Notes: generated by a model from the letters alone, not told the origin. Counted from the stretch's first letter, positions 8,054 through 16,991 are shown. The stretch: DNA of 47,231 nucleotides from a bacterium (GCA_016873475.1 VGXI01000006.1:1-47231); one strand, 5' to 3'. Numbers and translations: made by a program.

Positions 8054-8541
8054 CTACTGGTACTCCCGGCCCAGGATCACGCTGACGATGATCGCGCCCA
8101 CGGCCAGCGGCGCCGCGAAGCGGATCGCGAAGCGCCAGGCGCCGTAGCTGGCCATTCGCCCGTGCCCCTGCGATGTAGCGCGGGGTCCAGCCCGCGACCA
8201 CGCTGTAATTAGGAGAGGATCACGAAACCCGTGATGACGCCGAGCACGCCAACGCCCGGCCAGAGACCGGCGCTCCGCTTGCCCGCCGAGAGCGCGCGGA
8301 AGCTGCCCACCGGGTCCTTCTCGGCGCGGCGGCCCATGAGGATCTCGGCGACCATGATCGGCGCGCCGACCAGGATGACGGCCGCGAGGTAGATCAGCAC
8401 GAAGGCGCCGCCGTGGTTCTCCATTGCGATGTAGGGGAACTTCCAGGGATTGCCCAGACCGACGGCGCTGCCCGCCGCCGCCAGGGTGAAGCCCAGGCGG
8501 CCCGTCCACTGGCCGCGCTGGCCGCTCGCCGGCTTGCTCAT
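8054..8541 (-). pseudogene. Na+-dependent transporter of the NSS/SNF family, broken
   Basis: The N-terminal third of a neurotransmitter:sodium symporter-type transporter is intact in one frame. It carries the sodium-site signature AAAGSAVGLGNPWKFPY and continues through VGAPIMVAEILMGRR to GVITGFVILS, where a TAA (about 8209-8211) stops it. An extra base in TCCTAATTACAGC causes the stop: shifting frame restores YSVVAGWTPRYIAG, the expected continuation. Soon after, the reading jumps to a C-terminal-helix sequence (WRFAIRFAAPLAVGAII), so roughly 300 residues of core are missing. The start is better placed at 8541, because GGGAGG lies 6 bp ahead of it, than at ATG 8547. It cannot make a working carrier. 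Confidence 0.8.
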
Positions 8542-8570
8542 CCGCATCCTCCCGCGTCGTGGCTGGCGCG

Positions 8571-8600: not shown

Positions 8601-8720
8601 GCAGGGCCTCGCGGCCCCGCGGCCGGCGGCTCCGCTCCCCCGGCTGGCGGCGATTCCGGACGATTTGCTATTCTTTAGCCGGCGGTCGGCCGTCCGGCCT
8701 GTGATTTCCCGGGAGGCGAG

Positions 8721-9323
8721 GTGTCTCTGGCAGCGGAGAGGCGTGCAACAGCGGGGCTCAGCGACGAGCAGCTCTGGGCGCTGACCCAGGGCGAGCCCTC
8801 GCCGCTGGCGCGCCGGGCGGCCACCGCTCTGCTCGGTCGCTACCAGGAGCGCGTCTATCGCTGGTGCTACGGGCGGGTTGGCGAACACGAACTGGCCAGG
8901 GATCTCGCGCAGGACGTGCTCGTCAACGCCTACCGCGGCCTCGCCGGTTTCGACGGCCGCGCGCGCTTCTCCACCTGGCTCTTCGCGATCGCCAGGAACC
9001 GGTGTTTGAATGCGCTCCGGAGCCCGGCGCTCTTTGAGGAGGGCCTCGATCTCGATGCCCTGCCCGCTGCCCAGGGTGGTCAGGACGACGAGTTCTCCGG
9101 GCGCGAGGAGGAGGAGCGCCTCCTGGCGCTCATCCGCTCGGCGCTGCCGCCGCTGGACCAGCAGGTGCTGTGGCTGCGCTGCGTCGAGAAGATGCCGGTG
9201 GACGGCATCACGCGCCTGCTGGCGATCGAGGAAGCCAGCGGAGCGCGGGCAGTCCTGCAGCGCGCCCGGCGCCGCCTCCGCGCGGCGCTGGCGGCCGAGG
9301 AAGGAGACGAGGTCCGTGGTTGA
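8721..9323 (+). CDS. ECF-type RNA polymerase sigma factor
   Basis: This 200-residue sigma-70 family protein has the two ECF regions. Sigma2 (about 35-95) includes RVYRWCYGRVG, ELARDLAQDVLVNAYRGL and FSTWLFAIARNRCLN. Sigma4 (about 132-190) includes LPPLDQQVLWLRCVEKMPVDGI and a basic final helix. It should direct RNA polymerase to a small regulon in response to an envelope signal. Start is GTG 8721, with GGGAGG 4 bp upstream. The anti-sigma gene overlaps its end by 8 bp, indicating coupled synthesis of the pair. No convincing ECF-type autoregulatory promoter could be named in the 170 bp upstream. Confidence 0.93.
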   Translation: MSLAAERRATAGLSDEQLWALTQGEPSPLARRAATALLGRYQERVYRWCYGRVGEHELARDLAQDVLVNAYRGLAGFDGRARFSTWLFAIARNRCLNALRSPALFEEGLDLDALPAAQGGQDDEFSGREEEERLLALIRSALPPLDQQVLWLRCVEKMPVDGITRLLAIEEASGARAVLQRARRRLRAALAAEEGDEVRG

Positions 9324-10002
9324 CCGCTGCCCATTGCCCGAACTGCTCCCCGAGCTGGCCGAACTACCGGCGACGGACCCGCGGCGCCGGCACCTGGACG
9401 CTTGCCCCGCCTGCCAGGCGCGCCTGGCCGACTACCGCGATTTCATGGCCGGGGCGGCGCCCTGTCCGCCCCGGGAGCTGAAGCCGGCGCTCGCCGCACT
9501 GGACGCCGGGCTGCGCGCGGCAATCGCGGAGAGCGAGGGGGCGGCAGCGAGGCCGCGGGTTCGCCGGCTGTCTCTCGAGCATCCGGCGGCACGGCTGGGC
9601 CTCGCCCTCGCCGCGGTCCTGTTGCTACTGGTCGCGCTGAATGCGCTGCCGCGAGGCACGCGAGAGCGGGAGATCCGGCTGCGCGTCGACGAGGAGCTGC
9701 CGGATGCCGGCCAGGGGCTGCGCCTGCGTCCGGCGCGCCTGCTGGCGGACGGCGGCCTCGCGCTCGCCTGGGAGCCGGTGGCGGGCGCGGACGCTTACTC
9801 GGTGCGGCTGCTGGCACCGGATCTCTCGCTGCTGGCCGAGCGCTCGAGCGGGGGCGCCACGGAGCTGCGCCTGGAGGCTCGCGAGCTGCGCGCACTGCTG
9901 GCCGGTGCGCGCATCCTGGTCTGGCAGGTCCAGGCGCGCGCGGGTGGGGATCCGCTCGTCCAGTCGTCGCCGGCGACCTTCGCCCTGCCCGCGGCGCCCT
10001 GA
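9316..10002 (+). CDS. ZAS-type membrane anti-sigma factor
   Basis: This 228-residue single-pass membrane protein carries the zinc anti-sigma signature H26-x3-C30-x2-C33 in its cytoplasmic N-terminus. A transmembrane helix lies at about 93-111. The extracytoplasmic part (about 115-228) contains a fibronectin-III-like segment (LAWEPVAGADAYSVRLL and WQVQARAGG). It should hold the preceding sigma factor inactive at the membrane. GTG 9316 overlaps the sigma gene, and the TPR-CHAT gene starts 8 bp after the stop. The periplasmic domain may sense a ligand or be the site of regulatory cleavage. The anti-sigma call rests on the zinc motif and on gene order. Confidence 0.85.
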   Translation: MVDRCPLPELLPELAELPATDPRRRHLDACPACQARLADYRDFMAGAAPCPPRELKPALAALDAGLRAAIAESEGAAARPRVRRLSLEHPAARLGLALAAVLLLLVALNALPRGTREREIRLRVDEELPDAGQGLRLRPARLLADGGLALAWEPVAGADAYSVRLLAPDLSLLAERSSGGATELRLEARELRALLAGARILVWQVQARAGGDPLVQSSPATFALPAAP

Positions 10003-10009
10003 GCCCGGC

Positions 10010-12781
10010 ATGCGTTTTCGCGCCCGGCATGTCGTCCCGCTCGCCGTCCTCTTCGCGCTGCTCGCGGCCCCGCCGGCGCGGCCCGCGCCGGTTGGCGCGA
10101 CCGGAGCGGCGGCGTGGCCCGCGCTGGCGCGGCTGGACTCGCTGCGCCTCGCCTGGCGCGGTGCCGAGGCGCTCGCCCTCATCGACACCCTCCTGCCCGC
10201 CGCGCGCGCAGCGCGCGACAGCGCCCGGCTCGCGGGACTGCTCGTCCGCCAGGGCGAGCTGCTGACGTCGCTGGGCAGCGCGGGCCTCGCCGAGGCGCCG
10301 CTGCGCGAAGCGCTCGCGCTGGGCGCGGCGCGAGGGGACACGCGCACCCGGCTCAACGCGCTGCGCTGGCTCGGTCTCGCGCTCGAGGGCCAGGGCCGCG
10401 CCGCCGAGGCGACGCAGCGCTACCTCGAGCTGCAGAACCTGGCCGCGGCCGCCGGTGACGCCAGGCACCAGGGCTGGGCGCAGGTGGGGCTGGCCTGGCA
10501 GGACTACCAGGCCGGCCAGAGCGCGCGCAGCGCCGAGCGCTACCGCCAGGCGATCGCGCACTTCGCCGCCACCGACGAGCGCCGCGGCGAGATCTGGGCC
10601 TGGAACGGTCTCGGCGGCGCGCTCGCCAGTCTCGGCGACTATCGCGCGGCGATGGACTGCTACCGGCGCGCGGCCGCGGGTGCGCGCGCCGGCGGCGATC
10701 CGACGGTCGAAGCGATGGCACTCAACAACCTGGGCGGCCTCGCCTTCGACCTCGGCGATCCCGGCGATGCGATCGGGCACTTCGACCGCGCCCGCCAGAT
10801 CGAGATCGCTGAGCACTACCCCAAGGGCGCCTTCCTGCCCGCGCTCAACATCAGCCGTTGCGAGCAAGAGCTGGGGCGGCTCGCGGCGGCATCAGCGCTC
10901 CTCGACTCCCTGCTCGGCGCGAGTCGCGCCGGCGGCTGGCCCGATCTGGAAGCCCGGGCCCAACTCGGCCGCGCCGAGCTGGCGATGCGCCGCGCGCGCC
11001 CGCGCCAGGCGGCGGGGATCTACCGCGAGGTGCTGGCCATGGGCGCGCGCCTGCCCGAGCGCAGTGCGCTGGACGCCCGTCTCGGCCTCGCCCGCGCCCT
11101 GGCCCGCTGCGAGGGCGATGCGGCCGCGCTCGCCGCGCTCTCCTTCGGCGATGCGCCGCTCGAGGACCGCCAGCTCGCAACGGCGATCGCTGCTGAGACC
11201 GGTCGCCGGCTGCTTGCGCTCGGCCGGCCGGCAGAGGCGCTGCCGCGCTACCGCGCCGCCGCCGCCGAGGCCGCCCAGCTGGGCCTGGGCGGCCTGCGCG
11301 TGCAGGCGCTGGCCGGCCTCGCCGCTGCACAGCGCGCGCTGGGGCACGCCGACAGCGCCCTCGTTCTCCTGCGCGAGGGCGCACGGATCTGGGAAGCCGA
11401 ACGCAGCCTGCCGCGCGACCCCGAGTGGCGTGAGCAGCGCGGGGCGGCCGGTCATCTCCTCTACAGCGAACTTGCGCTCGCCCTGCTCGCGCCGCGCGCC
11501 GGCCTCAAGGAGGCTGCGCGCACGCGCCCCGCCTTCGACCAGCTCCAGCGCTTCAAGGCGCGCACGCTGCAGGAGCGCATGCTCGGGCCTGGCGCCCCCG
11601 CGGGCGAGTCCGCCTGGGCAACGGCCAACCTGGATCGATTGCAGCGCGAGACCCTGCGCGACGGCGAATTGCTGCTCGACCTCTATCTCGGCCCGGAGCG
11701 CTCGCTGCTCTTCGCGGTGACGCGCGCGCACTGCTACGCCCTGTTGTTGCCGGCCGAGGAACTGATCAGCGGCCGCCTGCGCGCATTGCATGGTCTGCTC
11801 GCCGCGCCGCCGGACCGGGCCGCACCGGCCGCCGCGCGAGAGGCCGAGCAGGCGGTGATCGCGGCGGCGGCCGCCGCCCTGCGCGGCCAGCTCTTCGGGG
11901 GGATCGAGGACCTCCTGGTGGCGAGCCGGCGCGTGGTGCTCGTCCCCGACGGCGTGCTCAACCTGTTCGCTCCCGCCCTGCTCGACCTTGCCGGGGGCCG
12001 GGAGTGGATCCGCGTCCCCGCCGCCGCCGTGCTCGTCGGACTGCGCGCGGGCGGTGGGGCACCGGCGCCACTGCGGCCGCTGCGCGCGCTCGCCCTTGCG
12101 GGCGACGGTGAGCGCGTCGCCCTGCCGGGCGCACGCCGCGAAGCCGCGGCCCTGGCGCGGGGTTATCGGGGCGTCGAGCGCTTGCTCCTGCCGGGGGCGG
12201 TCGGCGGCGACATCTCCCTCGAGCGCCTGCGCGGCTACGACCTGCTGCACATCGCCGCCCACGCCGAGCTGAACGACCAGAGCCCCTGGCAGTCCGCGCT
12301 GCTGCTCGGCGGCAAGCGGCTCAGCGCGGCCGAGATCGCCCGCGGCCGGCTCGACGCGCGCCTCGCCGTGCTGGCGGCCTGCGCCTCGGCGGACGGCCGC
12401 CGGCTCTCGGGCGAGGGCGTCCTCGGCCTGGCGAGCGCCTTCCTCGGCGCCGGCGCGCCGGCCGTGATCGCGACACTCTGGCCCGTCGACGATGCGGCGA
12501 CCGCCGCGCTGATGGAGCGCTTCTACGCCGAGCTGGCCGCCGGGCGGAGCGCGGCCGCCGCCCTGGCCGGCGCCCAGGCGGCCCTGCGCACCAGGGAGTC
12601 CACCGCCCATCCCTTCTTCTGGGCCGGCGTCGTGCTGGTGGGGGACGGGGAGGCCGGTCTGCCCCTGCGCCAGCGGCCCTTCCTCGCCCGTCACGGCCTC
12701 CGCCTCCTGGCCGGCCTGGCCGGGCTTCTCCTGCTCTCGGTCGCCCTGCGGCCCGCCCGAAAAATGCGCGCCTCCTTGTGA
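10010..12781 (+). CDS. exported TPR-CHAT protein (caspase-like protease), membrane-anchored
   Basis: The protein has 923 residues. A signal peptide (about 1-26) predicts export. Residues about 40-540 form a long array of tetratricopeptide-type helical repeats (for example GEIWAWNGLGGALASLGDYRAAMDCY and AMALNNLGGLAFDLGD). The C-terminal CHAT domain (about 570-875) keeps the catalytic pair: H751 in HIAAHAE and C791 in LAACAS. A GEGVLGLASAFLGAGAPAVIATLWPV stretch follows. A last hydrophobic helix (about 890-911) ends in a short basic tail, so the protease would face the periplasm. It is encoded with an ECF sigma factor and its anti-sigma factor, which suggests a role in that signal path. The substrate is unknown. 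Confidence 0.88.
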   Translation: MRFRARHVVPLAVLFALLAAPPARPAPVGATGAAAWPALARLDSLRLAWRGAEALALIDTLLPAARAARDSARLAGLLVRQGELLTSLGSAGLAEAPLREALALGAARGDTRTRLNALRWLGLALEGQGRAAEATQRYLELQNLAAAAGDARHQGWAQVGLAWQDYQAGQSARSAERYRQAIAHFAATDERRGEIWAWNGLGGALASLGDYRAAMDCYRRAAAGARAGGDPTVEAMALNNLGGLAFDLGDPGDAIGHFDRARQIEIAEHYPKGAFLPALNISRCEQELGRLAAASALLDSLLGASRAGGWPDLEARAQLGRAELAMRRARPRQAAGIYREVLAMGARLPERSALDARLGLARALARCEGDAAALAALSFGDAPLEDRQLATAIAAETGRRLLALGRPAEALPRYRAAAAEAAQLGLGGLRVQALAGLAAAQRALGHADSALVLLREGARIWEAERSLPRDPEWREQRGAAGHLLYSELALALLAPRAGLKEAARTRPAFDQLQRFKARTLQERMLGPGAPAGESAWATANLDRLQRETLRDGELLLDLYLGPERSLLFAVTRAHCYALLLPAEELISGRLRALHGLLAAPPDRAAPAAAREAEQAVIAAAAAALRGQLFGGIEDLLVASRRVVLVPDGVLNLFAPALLDLAGGREWIRVPAAAVLVGLRAGGGAPAPLRPLRALALAGDGERVALPGARREAAALARGYRGVERLLLPGAVGGDISLERLRGYDLLHIAAHAELNDQSPWQSALLLGGKRLSAAEIARGRLDARLAVLAACASADGRRLSGEGVLGLASAFLGAGAPAVIATLWPVDDAATAALMERFYAELAAGRSAAAALAGAQAALRTRESTAHPFFWAGVVLVGDGEAGLPLRQRPFLARHGLRLLAGLAGLLLLSVALRPARKMRASL

Positions 12782-12790
12782 TCCCCGCAC

Positions 12791-12830
12791 GCCTCCCGGT
12801 TCTCAGAAGCCGACCACTTCGCCGGGAGGC
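12791..12830 (+). promoter_or_regulatory. hairpin covering the FG-GAP gene's ribosome binding site
   Basis: GCCTCCCGG (12791-12799) and CCGGGAGGC (12822-12830) are perfect 9-bp inverted repeats with a 22-nt loop. The right arm contains GGGAGG (12824-12829), the Shine-Dalgarno sequence placed 6 bp before the ATG at 12836. In RNA the stem would hide the ribosome site, so translation could depend on opening of the stem. Confidence 0.55.
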
Positions 12831-12835
12831 CGACC

Positions 12836-15800
12836 ATGCCGCGCACCGCCGTCCGCAGCACTTCCATCCTTCGCCTTGCCGCCGCGCTCACCCTCCTCGC
12901 TGTCGCCCTCGGCCTGCCGCTCCGCACGGCGGCGCCGCCCCGCGCAGGCGCGCCGGCCGCCGCGCTGCCGGCCGGCATCGATGCGGGCTGGTGGGACGCC
13001 GTGCGCCAGGACCTGAGCGCGCGCGAATACGCCTTCGACTTCACGCCAGCGGGCGGCCTCGCCGCCCCCAACCGCGCGCAGGGCCTGCGCCTCGACTTCA
13101 CGGCGGCGGGCTTGAAGGTCGAGCCGCGCCGCGGCAGCGCCGCGGACTGGAACTGGACCTGGCGCACGGCCGCCTGGGGCCGCCCCGGCGCGCTGCAGGC
13201 TCTGCCCGCCGTGGCGCCGCAGGCCGAGGTGCAGCGGGTGGAGTACGCCTACGCCGGCCTGCGCGAGTGGTACGAGAACCGCGAGGCGGGGCTCGAGCAG
13301 GGCTTCACCGTCGGCGCGCCGCCCGCCGGCGAGGGTCCGCTCGCGGTGCTGGGCGCGCTGGACGGCACCCTGAGCGCACGCCGTGCGGGCGAGGGCCTGG
13401 TCTTCGTCGACGCGCAGGGACGCGAGCGCCTGCGCTATGGCGAGCTGGCGGCCTGGGACGCGACCGGTCGCGACCTGCCCTGCCGGCTCGAAATCGCGGA
13501 CGGCGGCCTGCGGCTGCTCGTCGACGACATGGGTGCGCAGTATCCGGTGGTCATCGATCCCCTGCTCACCACGCCCGACTGGGAGGTGCACGGCGCCATC
13601 GCCAACGCCGCGATGGGCTATCGCGTGGCGACGGCGGGCGACGTCAACGGCGATGGCTACAGCGACGTGATCGCCGGCTCGCCGGACTACACGACGAACG
13701 GCGTCACCCATTACGGCCGTGCCTGGGTGTTCCTCGGCGGCGCCGGCGGGCGACGTCAACGGCGATGGCTACAGCGACGTGATCGCCGGCTCGCCGGACT
13801 ACACGACGAACGGCGTCACCCATTACGGCCGTGCCTGGGTGTTCCTCGGCGGCGCCGGCGGCCTCGCGGCCACGCCGCACTGGGAAGTCACGACCACTCA
13901 GGACGACTGCCGCTTCGGCTACAGCGTGGCGACGGCTGGGGACGTCAACGGCGACGGCTACGACGACGTGCTCGTCGGCGCGCCCGACTACACGCTGAGC
14001 AGCCAGGAGAACGGCTGCGCCTTTCTCTACCTCGGATCGGCGAGCGGCCTCGACACCAGCGCCGACTGGCGCGAGGACGGCAGCAACACCTACGTCTCCT
14101 TCGGCTACAGCGTGTCGACGGCGGGCGACGTCAACGGCGACGGCTACGACGACATCATCATCGGCGATCCCTACTTCGGCACCACGGGGCGCGCGACGAT
14201 CTACCTGGGCGGCGCCTCCGGCCCCGACCACACCTACGATTGGTTCGTGAACCTGACCGGCCGCACCGGCCACTGCGTGGCGGGCGCGGGCGACGTCAAC
14301 GGCGACGGCTATGCGGACGTGATCGTCGGCTCGCCCTGGCGCTCGAACGGGCTGGGCGCGGAGGGTGCGTTCTACGTCTTCCACGGCGGATCCGGCGGGC
14401 CGGACACCACCGCGGATCGCACGGTCTTCGGGGACGAGGTCGCGCAGTACCTGGGCTACTGCGTGGCGCGCGCCGGGGACACCAACGGCGACGGCTACGG
14501 CGACGTGCTCGTGGGCGGCGTGGCGCTGGACGGCTTCTACGCCACGACCTCGAAAGTGCAGCTCTACACGGGCGGCGCGAGCGGCGTGGGCGCCACGCCG
14601 GTCTGGGAGAAGGAGCAGGCCGACGACCTGCAGCCGCTGGGCTACGACCTCGCCACGGCGGGAGACGTGAACGGCGACGGCCTGGCCGACGTGCTCGTCG
14701 GCTGCCGGCAGAGCGATCTCGGCGGCGCCGACGCGGGCACGGCCTGGCTCTACTTCGGCTCGCTCCAGGGCCTGGCGACCACCGCGGCCTGGACCGTGGA
14801 CGGCGAGGCGGCCGGCGACCTGCTCGGCCCCGTCGGCACGGCGGGCGACGTGGACGGCGATGGCTTCAGCGACATCCTGCTCGGCGCCACCGGCAGCGAC
14901 GTCGGCCACGCCGCCGCCGGTGGACTCTACTGCTACTCGGGCGCCGGCGACCTGCCCAAGACGACGAGCGGCTGGTACGCCCAGGGCGACCAGGTCGATG
15001 GCACCTTCGCCTACCGCCTGGCCTGCGCGGGCGACGTCAACGGCGACGGCTACGACGACCTCTGGGTCGGCGCGCCCTGGTACGACAACGGCCAGGTCGA
15101 CGAAGGCGCCGTCTTCCTCTACTTGGGCGGCCAGCTCGGCCTGGCCTACGCGCCGGGCTGGTGGGCCGAGGGCGATCAGACGGATTGCCACTTCGGCTTC
15201 GGGCTCGACAGCGCGGGCGATGTGAACGGGGACGGCCTCGCGGACGTCATCGTCGGCGCTTCCTGGTACGACGGCAGCGCCGGCTCCAGTGGCGCTGCCT
15301 TCCTCTGGTACGGCACGGCGGGCGGTGCCCCCTCCGGCAATCCCGCGAATGCGGACTGGAGCGCCATCGGCGCCCAGGCCGGGGCAATGCTGGGCGCCGG
15401 CGTCTGCGGGGCCGGCGACGTCAACGGCGACGGCTACGGCGACGTGGTGATCGGCGCGCCCTTCTACGACAATCCGACGACCAACGAAGGCGCGGTCTGG
15501 GGCTACTACGGCGGTCCGACCGGGCTGCCGGCCGCGCACGACTGGTTCCACGACACGGGCAGCGCGGAATCCGGCTACGGGCTGCGTCTGGCCTCCGCCG
15601 GCGACATGAACGGCGACGGCTACAGCGATCTGCTCGTGGCCGCGCCGCTGTACAACCACGGCAGCACGGACGAGGGCCTGATCTTCGTCTACATCGGCGG
15701 CGAGGACGGGCTGCAGACCGGCGCACCCTGGTGGTTCGCCGAGAGCAACGAGGCGGACGCCGAGCTCGGCCTGTCCATCGCCTGCGCCGGGGACGTCAAC

Positions 15801-16991
15801 GCCGACGGCTACAGCGACATCATCGCCGGCGCGCCCTACATGGACTCACCGGCCACGGACGTCGGCCACGCGCTGGTCTGGCTGGGCGCGGCCACGGCGC
15901 CGCCGACCGGCACGCCGGCCAACGCCGAGCTGAACGTCGGCATCAGCGACAGCTATGCGCACCTCGGCAGCGCGGTGGGCGGCGCCGGCGACGTCGACGG
16001 CGACGGCTACAGCGACGTGATCATCGGCGCCCCGCACTACACGACGGCTGCCGGCACCGCCGCCGGCCTCGCCTTCATCTACCGCGGCGGCCCGGACGGC
16101 ATCGTCCACGGCGCGGCGCCCTGGTTGATCGACGGCATCCAGGAAGAGAGCTGGTTCGGCAACGCCACCTGCAGCGGAGACTTCAACGGCGACGGCTTCA
16201 GCGACGTCGTCGTCGGCGCGGAGCAGTACAGCAACGGTCAGAACCAGGAGGGCCTCGCCTTCCTCTTCTATGGCAACGGCGGCCGCGGCCTCGCCCGCAC
16301 GCCGCGCCAGTGGAAGACGGACACCGTGACCCGTCTTGCGCCCCTGGGCCGCAGCGACGCCCTCGACGCCGTCGCCCTCAGCGCGCGGGGTCGCACGCCG
16401 GGCGGCCGCGGCACAGTGCGCTTCGTGGCCGAGGTCGAGCCGCTGGGCACGGACTTCGACGGCGCGGGCACGGTGGCCGGCAATTGGACCGACACCGGCG
16501 CTCCCGCGGCGGGTGCGGGCAGCGCGGTCGCGCTCGCGCCGGCGCTCGCCGGCGGCCTCGCCGACGACACGGCGCAGCACTGGCGCCTGCGCCTCGAGAC
16601 CGGCGATCCTTACTTCCCGCGCACGCCCTGGCTCAGCCTGTCCGCGAACGCGATCACGATGACGGACTTCCGCACGCGCGGCGCAGGCACGGGGGCGGGC
16701 GAGACGCCGCCGGCGAGCCTGCTGGCGCTGGAGAGCTACCCGAATCCCTTCAATCCCGCGACCACGCTGAGTTACACGCTGCCCGCCGCCGGACATGTGC
16801 AGCTGGATGTCTACGACGCTGCCGGACGCCACCTGCGGCAGCTCGTCTCGACGACACAGGCGGCCGGCCCTCACACGGCGGTGTGGAACGGGTGTGATGG
16901 GGAGGGCCGGCCCCTGGTTTCCGGGCTCTACTTCGCCCGCCTGCAGGCGGCGGGTGCCGCAGAGAGCCGGAAGCTCGTGCTCGTGAAATGA
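12836..16991 (+). CDS. secreted FG-GAP propeller protein with FlgD-like C-terminal tail, frame-shifted by a duplication
   Basis: Removing one copy of a 112-bp tandem duplication (13632-13861) restores a single frame of 1347 residues; as written, the frame breaks near residue 305. A signal peptide (about 1-32) and a 220-residue beta-rich N-terminal domain (EYAYAGLREWYENREAGLEQGF, ending YPVVIDPLL) come first. Then follow 14 FG-GAP repeats of about 65 residues, each with a Ca2+-binding AGDVNGDGYSDV-type loop and a GAP-like turn. Fourteen repeats fit two seven-bladed propellers. A linker domain is followed by the C-terminal NPFNP module and FlgD-Ig-like fold (YPNPFNPATTLSYTLP to the end), as in secreted proteins of the FCB group. 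It begins 54 bp after the TPR-CHAT gene. Cell-surface binding or adhesion is inferred. Confidence 0.8.
13632..13861 (+). repeat. perfect 112-bp tandem duplication inside the FG-GAP gene
   Basis: Bases 13632-13749 are identical to 13744-13861: two copies with a 112-bp period and 6 bp of shared sequence (CGGCGG) at the joints. The unit encodes one FG-GAP loop (GDVNGDGYSDVIAGSP to VFLGGAGG). Since 112 is not a multiple of 3, the second copy moves translation out of frame. Deleting either copy restores the frame. Other repeats in the gene differ at many bases, so this exact copy is recent or an assembly artefact. Confidence 0.95.

Follow-up and report, generated by a model that had tools for sequence, protein, structure and literature searches.

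Proteolysis of anti-sigma factors is one of the main routes by which bacteria signal across their membranes, and the outer cut of this route is known mainly from serine proteases of the DegS type. CHAT domains, anti-sigma factors and sigma factors have been linked twice elsewhere. In one case proteolysis is proven: the TPR-CHAT protein Csx29 cleaves Csx30, an inhibitor that binds a sigma factor resembling those of the extracytoplasmic function (ECF) group (PMC10028731). In the other, the Myxococcus xanthus anti-sigma factor DdvA, the CHAT domain is built into the anti-sigma factor itself, and the inactivating signal and mechanism are unknown (PMC4374960). Among the open-access papers covered here, the Csx29 paper alone joins 'CHAT domain' and 'anti-sigma'. 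Here we analyse a gene block at positions 8,721 to 16,991 of a 47,231-nucleotide stretch of bacterial DNA (GCA_016873475.1, VGXI01000006.1:1-47231; hereafter the window), which is one contig of a 3.64-Mb metagenome-assembled genome (MAG) that named relatives place in the uncultured phylum Krumholzibacteriota, class Krumholzibacteriia. The block encodes an ECF sigma factor, a ZAS-type membrane anti-sigma factor, an exported TPR-CHAT protein and FG-GAP repeats, and had been described in an earlier note as a possible envelope-protease signalling system.

Our analysis favours, by a little more than an even chance, a whole transmembrane signalling module that leads from the CHAT protein via the anti-sigma linker and the sigma factor to a surface protein. 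In such a module the ZAS anti-sigma factor would keep the ECF sigma factor at the inner membrane, while the exported TPR-CHAT protein, anchored via its C-terminal helix, would hold its caspase/separase-like domain outside that membrane. Upon sensing of a signal by the TPR array the CHAT domain would be activated and, as a site-1 protease, would recognise and most likely cut the disordered anti-sigma linker at a motif of the form hLRG (L122-R123-V124 in the window). The membrane stump would presumably be removed by a housekeeping site-2 protease of the RseP type, and the freed sigma factor would use promoters of the form TGTGATT-N15-[CT]GTC to transcribe its own operon as well as an adjacent large surface protein with a tail of the type IX secretion system (T9SS), here the FG-GAP protein. 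The computation revealed the conserved trio of genes, the topology signals, a linker motif specific to CHAT-linked families, a promoter motif with its target genes, and an RseP family protein encoded in the genome; from these we infer cleavage and its scissile bond, a signal that triggers it, a site-2 step and active promoters. The features of the trio are as follows:

8700..8725, + strand: ECF-type promoter TGTGATT-N15-TGTC of the sigma operon (shared dyad; position weight matrix (PWM) score 22.9 in the window)
8721..9323, + strand: ECF sigma factor, putative GTG start (Pfam Sigma70_r2; NCBIfam sigma70-ECF superfamily over cut-off)
9316..10002, + strand: ZAS-type membrane anti-sigma factor with cytoplasmic HLDACPAC, one transmembrane helix (TM) and an extracytoplasmic FN3-like domain (sequence, alignment A1, AlphaFold2 (AF2) model)
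9583..9645, + strand: TM of the anti-sigma factor, residues 90-110 (AF2 secondary structure and hydropathy)
9679..9687, + strand: L122-R123-V124 next to the membrane, hLRG in the family consensus; putative site of cleavage or recognition within the only disordered stretch (residues 115-131)
9721..9990, + strand: FN3-like beta-sandwich, residues 136-225 (AF2 model, FN3 fold match)
10010..12781, + strand: predicted TPR-CHAT protease, exported and C-terminally anchored, 923 aa (profile matches, topology signals, model)
11876..12646, + strand: CHAT domain, residues 623-879 (Pfam CHAT E 1.3e-46), with His751 at 12260-12262 and Cys791 at 12380-12382

The overlap of 8 bp between the sigma and anti-sigma genes (8721-9323 and 9316-10002) agrees with the earlier note, and the TPR-CHAT gene begins 7 bp past the anti-sigma stop. 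The four-gene block is confirmed in part: the sigma, ZAS anti-sigma and TPR-CHAT genes are intact, whereas the FG-GAP gene is split and does not form a single frame.

CHAT matches occur in 41 of 58 relatives, and the flanks of about 150 loci were read. Among the anti-sigma factors that we term type A, a set collected partly via CHAT and partly via an anti-sigma profile, a sigma gene lies directly upstream in 45 of 46 cases and a CHAT gene within 5 kb in 36 of 46; six of the ten exceptions lie at most 4.2 kb from the end of a contig or stretch. The position of the CHAT gene varies: in 20 loci it precedes the sigma and anti-sigma genes on the same strand, in 12 it lies downstream and in six on the opposite strand. 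A paralogous locus of the same genome (L034, C58) has the order CHAT-sigma-anti-sigma-FG-GAP. A more distant set, type B, possesses its own sigma factors, anti-sigma factors and longer CHAT proteins, and CHAT genes beside sigma or anti-sigma genes are likewise found in Latescibacterota, Acidobacteria, Aminicenantes and others. The association of the trio exceeds chance, and because the trio is kept in several gene orders across the class we regard it as a functional module and not as a frozen operon. The earlier note had taken an unconserved four-gene order in relatives as a refutation of its model, which literally applies, since the order varies; the gene content, however, is conserved, and conserved content with varied order is stronger evidence of linkage than a fixed order. 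In one complete genome (G008; L049, 6551-9802, - strand) a single protein of 1083 aa has the layout TPR-CHAT-TM-TM-ILRG-FN3, with a short basic loop between the two TMs, without ZAS and with no sigma gene nearby. Given this layout, the CHAT domain and the outer domain of the anti-sigma factor should share one side of the membrane.

The anti-sigma factor combines the zinc motif H26-x3-C30-x2-C33 with a single TM and an adjoining ECF sigma gene, and thus belongs to the ZAS proteins, with zinc binding predicted; C5, C30 and C33 are invariant in alignment A1. Its AF2 model (predicted local distance difference test, pLDDT, 85.8) and the FN3 fold bear out the fibronectin-like outer domain that had been proposed. 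Outside the membrane the linker is disordered and variable apart from the motif: the model is confident except at residues 115-131, the one part of the linker that it shows as disordered, and R123, which lies inside this stretch, is the sole invariant linker residue in alignment A1. An invariant arginine alone was dropped as evidence, given that some linker arginine is found in 45 of 45 proteins where 45 are expected, so that only the tripeptide counts. We searched for [ILVM]RG within 35 aa past the TM and compared the counts with shuffled linkers, since gaps can align any arginine. The tripeptide is present in 33 of 45 type-A linkers (shuffle mean 3.8; none of 2000 shuffles reached 33) and in 15 of 20 type-B linkers, a list that also includes the G008 fusion, two orphans and L050 (shuffle mean 1.5; none of 2000 reached 15), but in only one of the 22 other ZAS proteins from the same class that served as controls (0.8 expected). 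It is retained where the outer domain has been swapped (L050, L084; VLRG), where the ZAS cysteines have been lost (L061, L063) and in the G008 fusion (ILRG), but two orphan TM-FN3 proteins without CHAT or sigma (L201, L204) lack it. Its persistence beside a different outer domain and its loss in the orphans rule out that it is a part of the FN3 fold. The hLRG motif is the best candidate for a site of cleavage or recognition by CHAT. As a separate observation, two CHAT genes on opposite strands flank an FN3-type anti-sigma gene in three loci of Aminicenantes (L097, L098, L110), the linkers of which are without LRG but have a common 'L(I/V)xP' FN3 start.

The TPR-CHAT protein (model pLDDT 85.7) matches Pfam CHAT with 159.8 bits (cut-off 24) and TPR_12 with E 7e-15, and has the clan CD fold together with a His-Cys dyad, from which protease activity is predicted. 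His751 and Cys791 are retained, as the earlier note stated, and are invariant across 22 orthologues as well as in a wider set of 32 CHAT domains; the signal-peptide-like N-terminus and the C-terminal TM described there are also present. Among type-A CHAT proteins whose N-terminus could be judged, nearly all combine a signal-like N-terminus with a C-terminal TM and a basic tail behind it; several type-B CHAT proteins with an intact N-terminus appear to be exported too. The genome of the window has a third CHAT gene (L035, C28; 2890-7052, - strand), which is without signal peptide or TM and lies near the gene of an ECF-like sigma factor and a small, unassigned open reading frame (ORF), a different and apparently cytoplasmic sigma-CHAT arrangement.

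The sigma factor matches Sigma70_r2 (E 3.9e-17), r4_2 at a level under the Pfam cut-off (E 0.007) and TIGR02937 (sigma70-ECF superfamily; 72.5 bits, cut-off 42.9, residues 33-190), and with regions 2 and 4 and without region 3 it is a member of the ECF sigma factors (group 4). At 8721 its GTG coincides in part with the -10 element of the promoter, as is also the case in L038, so that the true start or the use of this promoter is uncertain. The dyad TGTGATT-N15-[CT]GTC occurs upstream of sigma in 15 of 26 regions (shuffled maximum 4-6) and mostly ends immediately 5' of the sigma start codon; a conserved promoter of the GGAAC type was rejected, being barely above expectation (12 versus 6.8 in shuffles) and without a partner -10. 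Only five exact copies of the motif are found genome-wide, compared to two of a reversed-pattern control, so the regulon looks small and local. PWM scores of at least 13 (null distribution: 95% = 7.7, 99% = 11.3) were obtained upstream of 12 of 22 sigma genes, 6 of 12 adjacent exported genes, none of 22 CHAT genes and 6 of 182 other genes, most of which also sit in or beside the module; at scores of at least 11.3, adjacent exported genes differ from other genes with Fisher p = 1e-5. In loci that begin with CHAT, the PWM scan places the motif between CHAT and sigma and none before CHAT. The motif precedes the FG-GAP orthologues in L037 (18.7), L038 (16.9) and L057 (13.3), an FG-GAP protein in L056, CARDB/FlgD proteins in L044 and L053, tail proteins in L048 and L068, and kelch/beta-helix proteins in L043 and L039; the target in L052 (814 aa) is a leucyl-tRNA synthetase and was excluded from the surface proteins. 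The lack of the motif before CHAT and its presence before adjacent surface-protein genes suggest that CHAT is probably the input and FG-GAP the output. The adjacent surface protein, and not CHAT, would then probably be the dedicated target of the sigma factor, if the motifs act as promoters, and CHAT was discarded as a candidate for a sigma-regulated effector. In L053 the sigma promoter and that of the neighbouring surface protein (6918 and 10862, - strand) have the same variant (-10 GCGTTCC), which suggests co-evolution of the promoters with the local sigma factor.

The FG-GAP region comprises the following features:

12777..12804, + strand: weak sigma-type promoter before FG-GAP, TGTGATCCCCGCACGCCTCCCGGTTCTC (PWM 9.9)
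12836..13738, + strand: N-terminal part of the FG-GAP surface protein (FG-GAP E 1.5e-8; orthologous N-termini in L037 and L038)
13627..13850, + strand: frame-shifting 112-bp tandem duplication in the FG-GAP gene
13719..16991, + strand: remainder of FG-GAP, about 13 repeats with a FlgD-Ig / T9SS type A sorting tail (FG-GAP E 2.8e-96, FlgD_ig E 1.8e-9)

The 'giant FG-GAP gene' of the earlier note (12836-16991) is not one frame. A duplication whose copies (13627-13738 and 13739-13850) are 99% identical and whose length is not a multiple of three (112 = 3n+1) leaves two overlapping ORFs, whereas the orthologues in L037 and L038 are single ORFs of 1230 and 1326 aa as called, so that the break arose in this MAG alone, either as an artefact of its assembly or as a real mutation, such as a slippage event. 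The tail matches TIGR04183 with 30.6 bits (cut-off 23) and the genome encodes a PorU-like T9SS sortase (429.8 bits, cut-off 420); the FG-GAP protein, with its type A C-terminal sorting domain and this sortase in the genome, thus qualifies as predicted T9SS cargo and probably resides at the surface. A tail protein near the module is not special per se: FlgD-Ig tails number from 40 to 150 or more in each of these genomes, adjacency alone therefore means little, and the promoter comparison was used instead. Upstream of the block, at 8054-8547 (- strand), a short N-terminal fragment, read by eye, resembles a sodium-dependent (SNF-like) transporter; it is truncated and frame-shifted and is probably a gene remnant or an assembly error.

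The role that the earlier note had considered for the FG-GAP protein, that of CHAT substrate or of ligand sensed by the TPR array, is favoured by the place of its gene, which neighbours the trio at two loci of G000 and in G001, G003 and G017 and lies downstream of the anti-sigma gene in G009. Most loci, however, are without FG-GAP and have CARDB, kelch/beta-helix or other surface proteins in its place, FG-GAP and its substitutes bear the sigma-type promoter that marks output, and [ILVM]RG was not found in the FG-GAP fragments. FG-GAP is a lineage-specific neighbour of the trio and more likely a transcriptional output, and we consider the substrate or ligand role improbable. Very improbable, in our judgement, is mere neighbourhood, in which abundant sigma, anti-sigma and CHAT families would be co-inherited in operons without direct contact. 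CHAT and ZAS proteins are indeed numerous in these genomes, but the trio stays together while order and strand change, two kinds of fusion exist, and the linker motif is specific to CHAT-linked families.

A more serious, if still unlikely, alternative is that CHAT regulates by binding, or as a pseudo-protease: it would dock on the LRG linker or on FN3 and hold or release the anti-sigma factor uncut, and the two proteins would be the DdvA arrangement divided between two genes. DdvA (8rot/8rw5), an anti-sigma factor with a CHAT domain and an inactivating signal that is unknown (PMC4374960), is a strong structural match, and the G008 fusion keeps LRG beside CHAT with no sigma gene nearby. On the other hand, the invariance of His751 and Cys791 in orthologues and wider CHAT domains alike would be unexpected if catalysis were dispensable, and a disordered linker fits a cut site better than it does a docking surface. 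We are also rather doubtful that LRG is cut by another site-1 protease (e.g. a DegS-like one), with CHAT as a separately deployed effector. This would agree with the persistence of LRG in some anti-sigma factors without nearby CHAT and with the place of the window's CHAT gene downstream within the sigma operon; LRG is, however, rare in the ordinary ZAS anti-sigma factors of the same genomes (1/22), and a CHAT gene without a sigma-type promoter (0/22), lying outside the sigma promoter in CHAT-first loci, is a poor fit to an effector.

That the membrane-tethered CHAT protein is the dedicated site-1 protease of an ECF pathway family in Krumholzibacteriota and relatives, which cuts at hLRG and switches on the neighbouring surface protein, has in our view an even chance of being correct, and several points weigh against it. 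The extracytoplasmic action of CHAT on the anti-sigma factor, as the earlier note proposed it, has strong circumstantial support (trio, topology, motif, two fusions), but cleavage itself is a prediction. The window carries the motif in a weaker form, LRV, and close relatives have LRT, LRA and LRG; an arginine somewhere in the linker is uninformative by itself. LRG is kept in L182, L184 and L195, long contigs without CHAT in reach, which calls for action in trans or for a different protease, while the CHAT-linked anti-sigma factors of Acidobacteria, Aminicenantes and Clostridiales are without LRG. The TM and signal calls derive from hydropathy and model helices and not from SignalP-type tools, and the PWM score for sigma is not independent, the matrix having been trained on sigma-upstream hits. 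In sigma-anti-sigma-CHAT loci, the window included, CHAT lies inside the sigma operon, where a feedback or output role is possible. Finally, the acid by which separase binds the P1 arginine is D2151 (PMC9729208), and this position (K670 of Csb TPR-CHAT) aligns with Ala832; Asp828 was tried as the equivalent acid, being invariant and at C+37, and was rejected on account of that alignment. An arginine specificity can thus not be argued from separase.

Among described proteins, those nearest to the CHAT model in fold are Csx29/TPR-CHAT with Z 27.8, separase with Z 26.2 (3.6 A, 325 residues) and DdvA, for which Z is 20.5 at 4.4 A and 20% identity across 552 residues; DdvA is also the best PDB sequence match of the CHAT profile. 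With Craspase/CASP of type III-E CRISPR (Csx29, Csx30, CASP-sigma/RpoE) the module shares the TPR-CHAT fold and the genetic link of protease, inhibitor and ECF-like sigma factor; the protease of Craspase cuts the inhibitor (PMC10028731, PMC9729208), as we infer for the module here. In contrast, Csx29 acts with Cas7-11 and RNA on Csx30, whereas here an exported CHAT protein faces a membrane ZAS anti-sigma factor, and the window's CHAT protein, with 21 bits against a cut-off of 300 and a signal-like N-terminus, is not a member of the Csx29 family. DdvS-DdvA of M. xanthus likewise has an ECF sigma factor under a transmembrane anti-sigma factor that involves CHAT, but anti-sigma and CHAT are one polypeptide there and two genes here, so that our proteins are not of the DdvA type. 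The promoter resembles that of ECF41 (TGTCACA-n16-CGTC, with neighbouring genes as the only detected targets; PMC3426412) in its TGT-type -35, its spacer of 15-16 bp, its CGTC -10 and its restriction to the neighbouring gene; however, the -35 is TGTGATT here, the 200-aa sigma factor ends after region 4 without a large C-terminal extension, and its anti-sigma factor is a membrane protein, which sets it outside ECF41. Regulated intramembrane proteolysis (RIP), as in DegS/RseP-RseA and RsiW, offers a parallel for the anti-sigma factor itself: a single-pass protein with an outer domain, a predicted juxtamembrane cut and a site-2 protease at hand, differing in that the site-1 protease here would be a cysteine protease of clan CD and not a DegS-type serine protease. 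Regulated proteolysis of anti-sigma factors is already known, and the new element would be this unusual protease class, by which a caspase/separase-like site-1 enzyme, if true, would be added to RIP. Many unexplained sigma-linked CHAT genes would then gain a testable function. At the envelope, the dedicated CHAT pathway would correspond to the Craspase-Csx30-sigma circuit, and DdvA would be a relative of it in fused form; this would suggest how DdvA and the CRISPR-linked Csx29-Csx30-sigma circuit are related.

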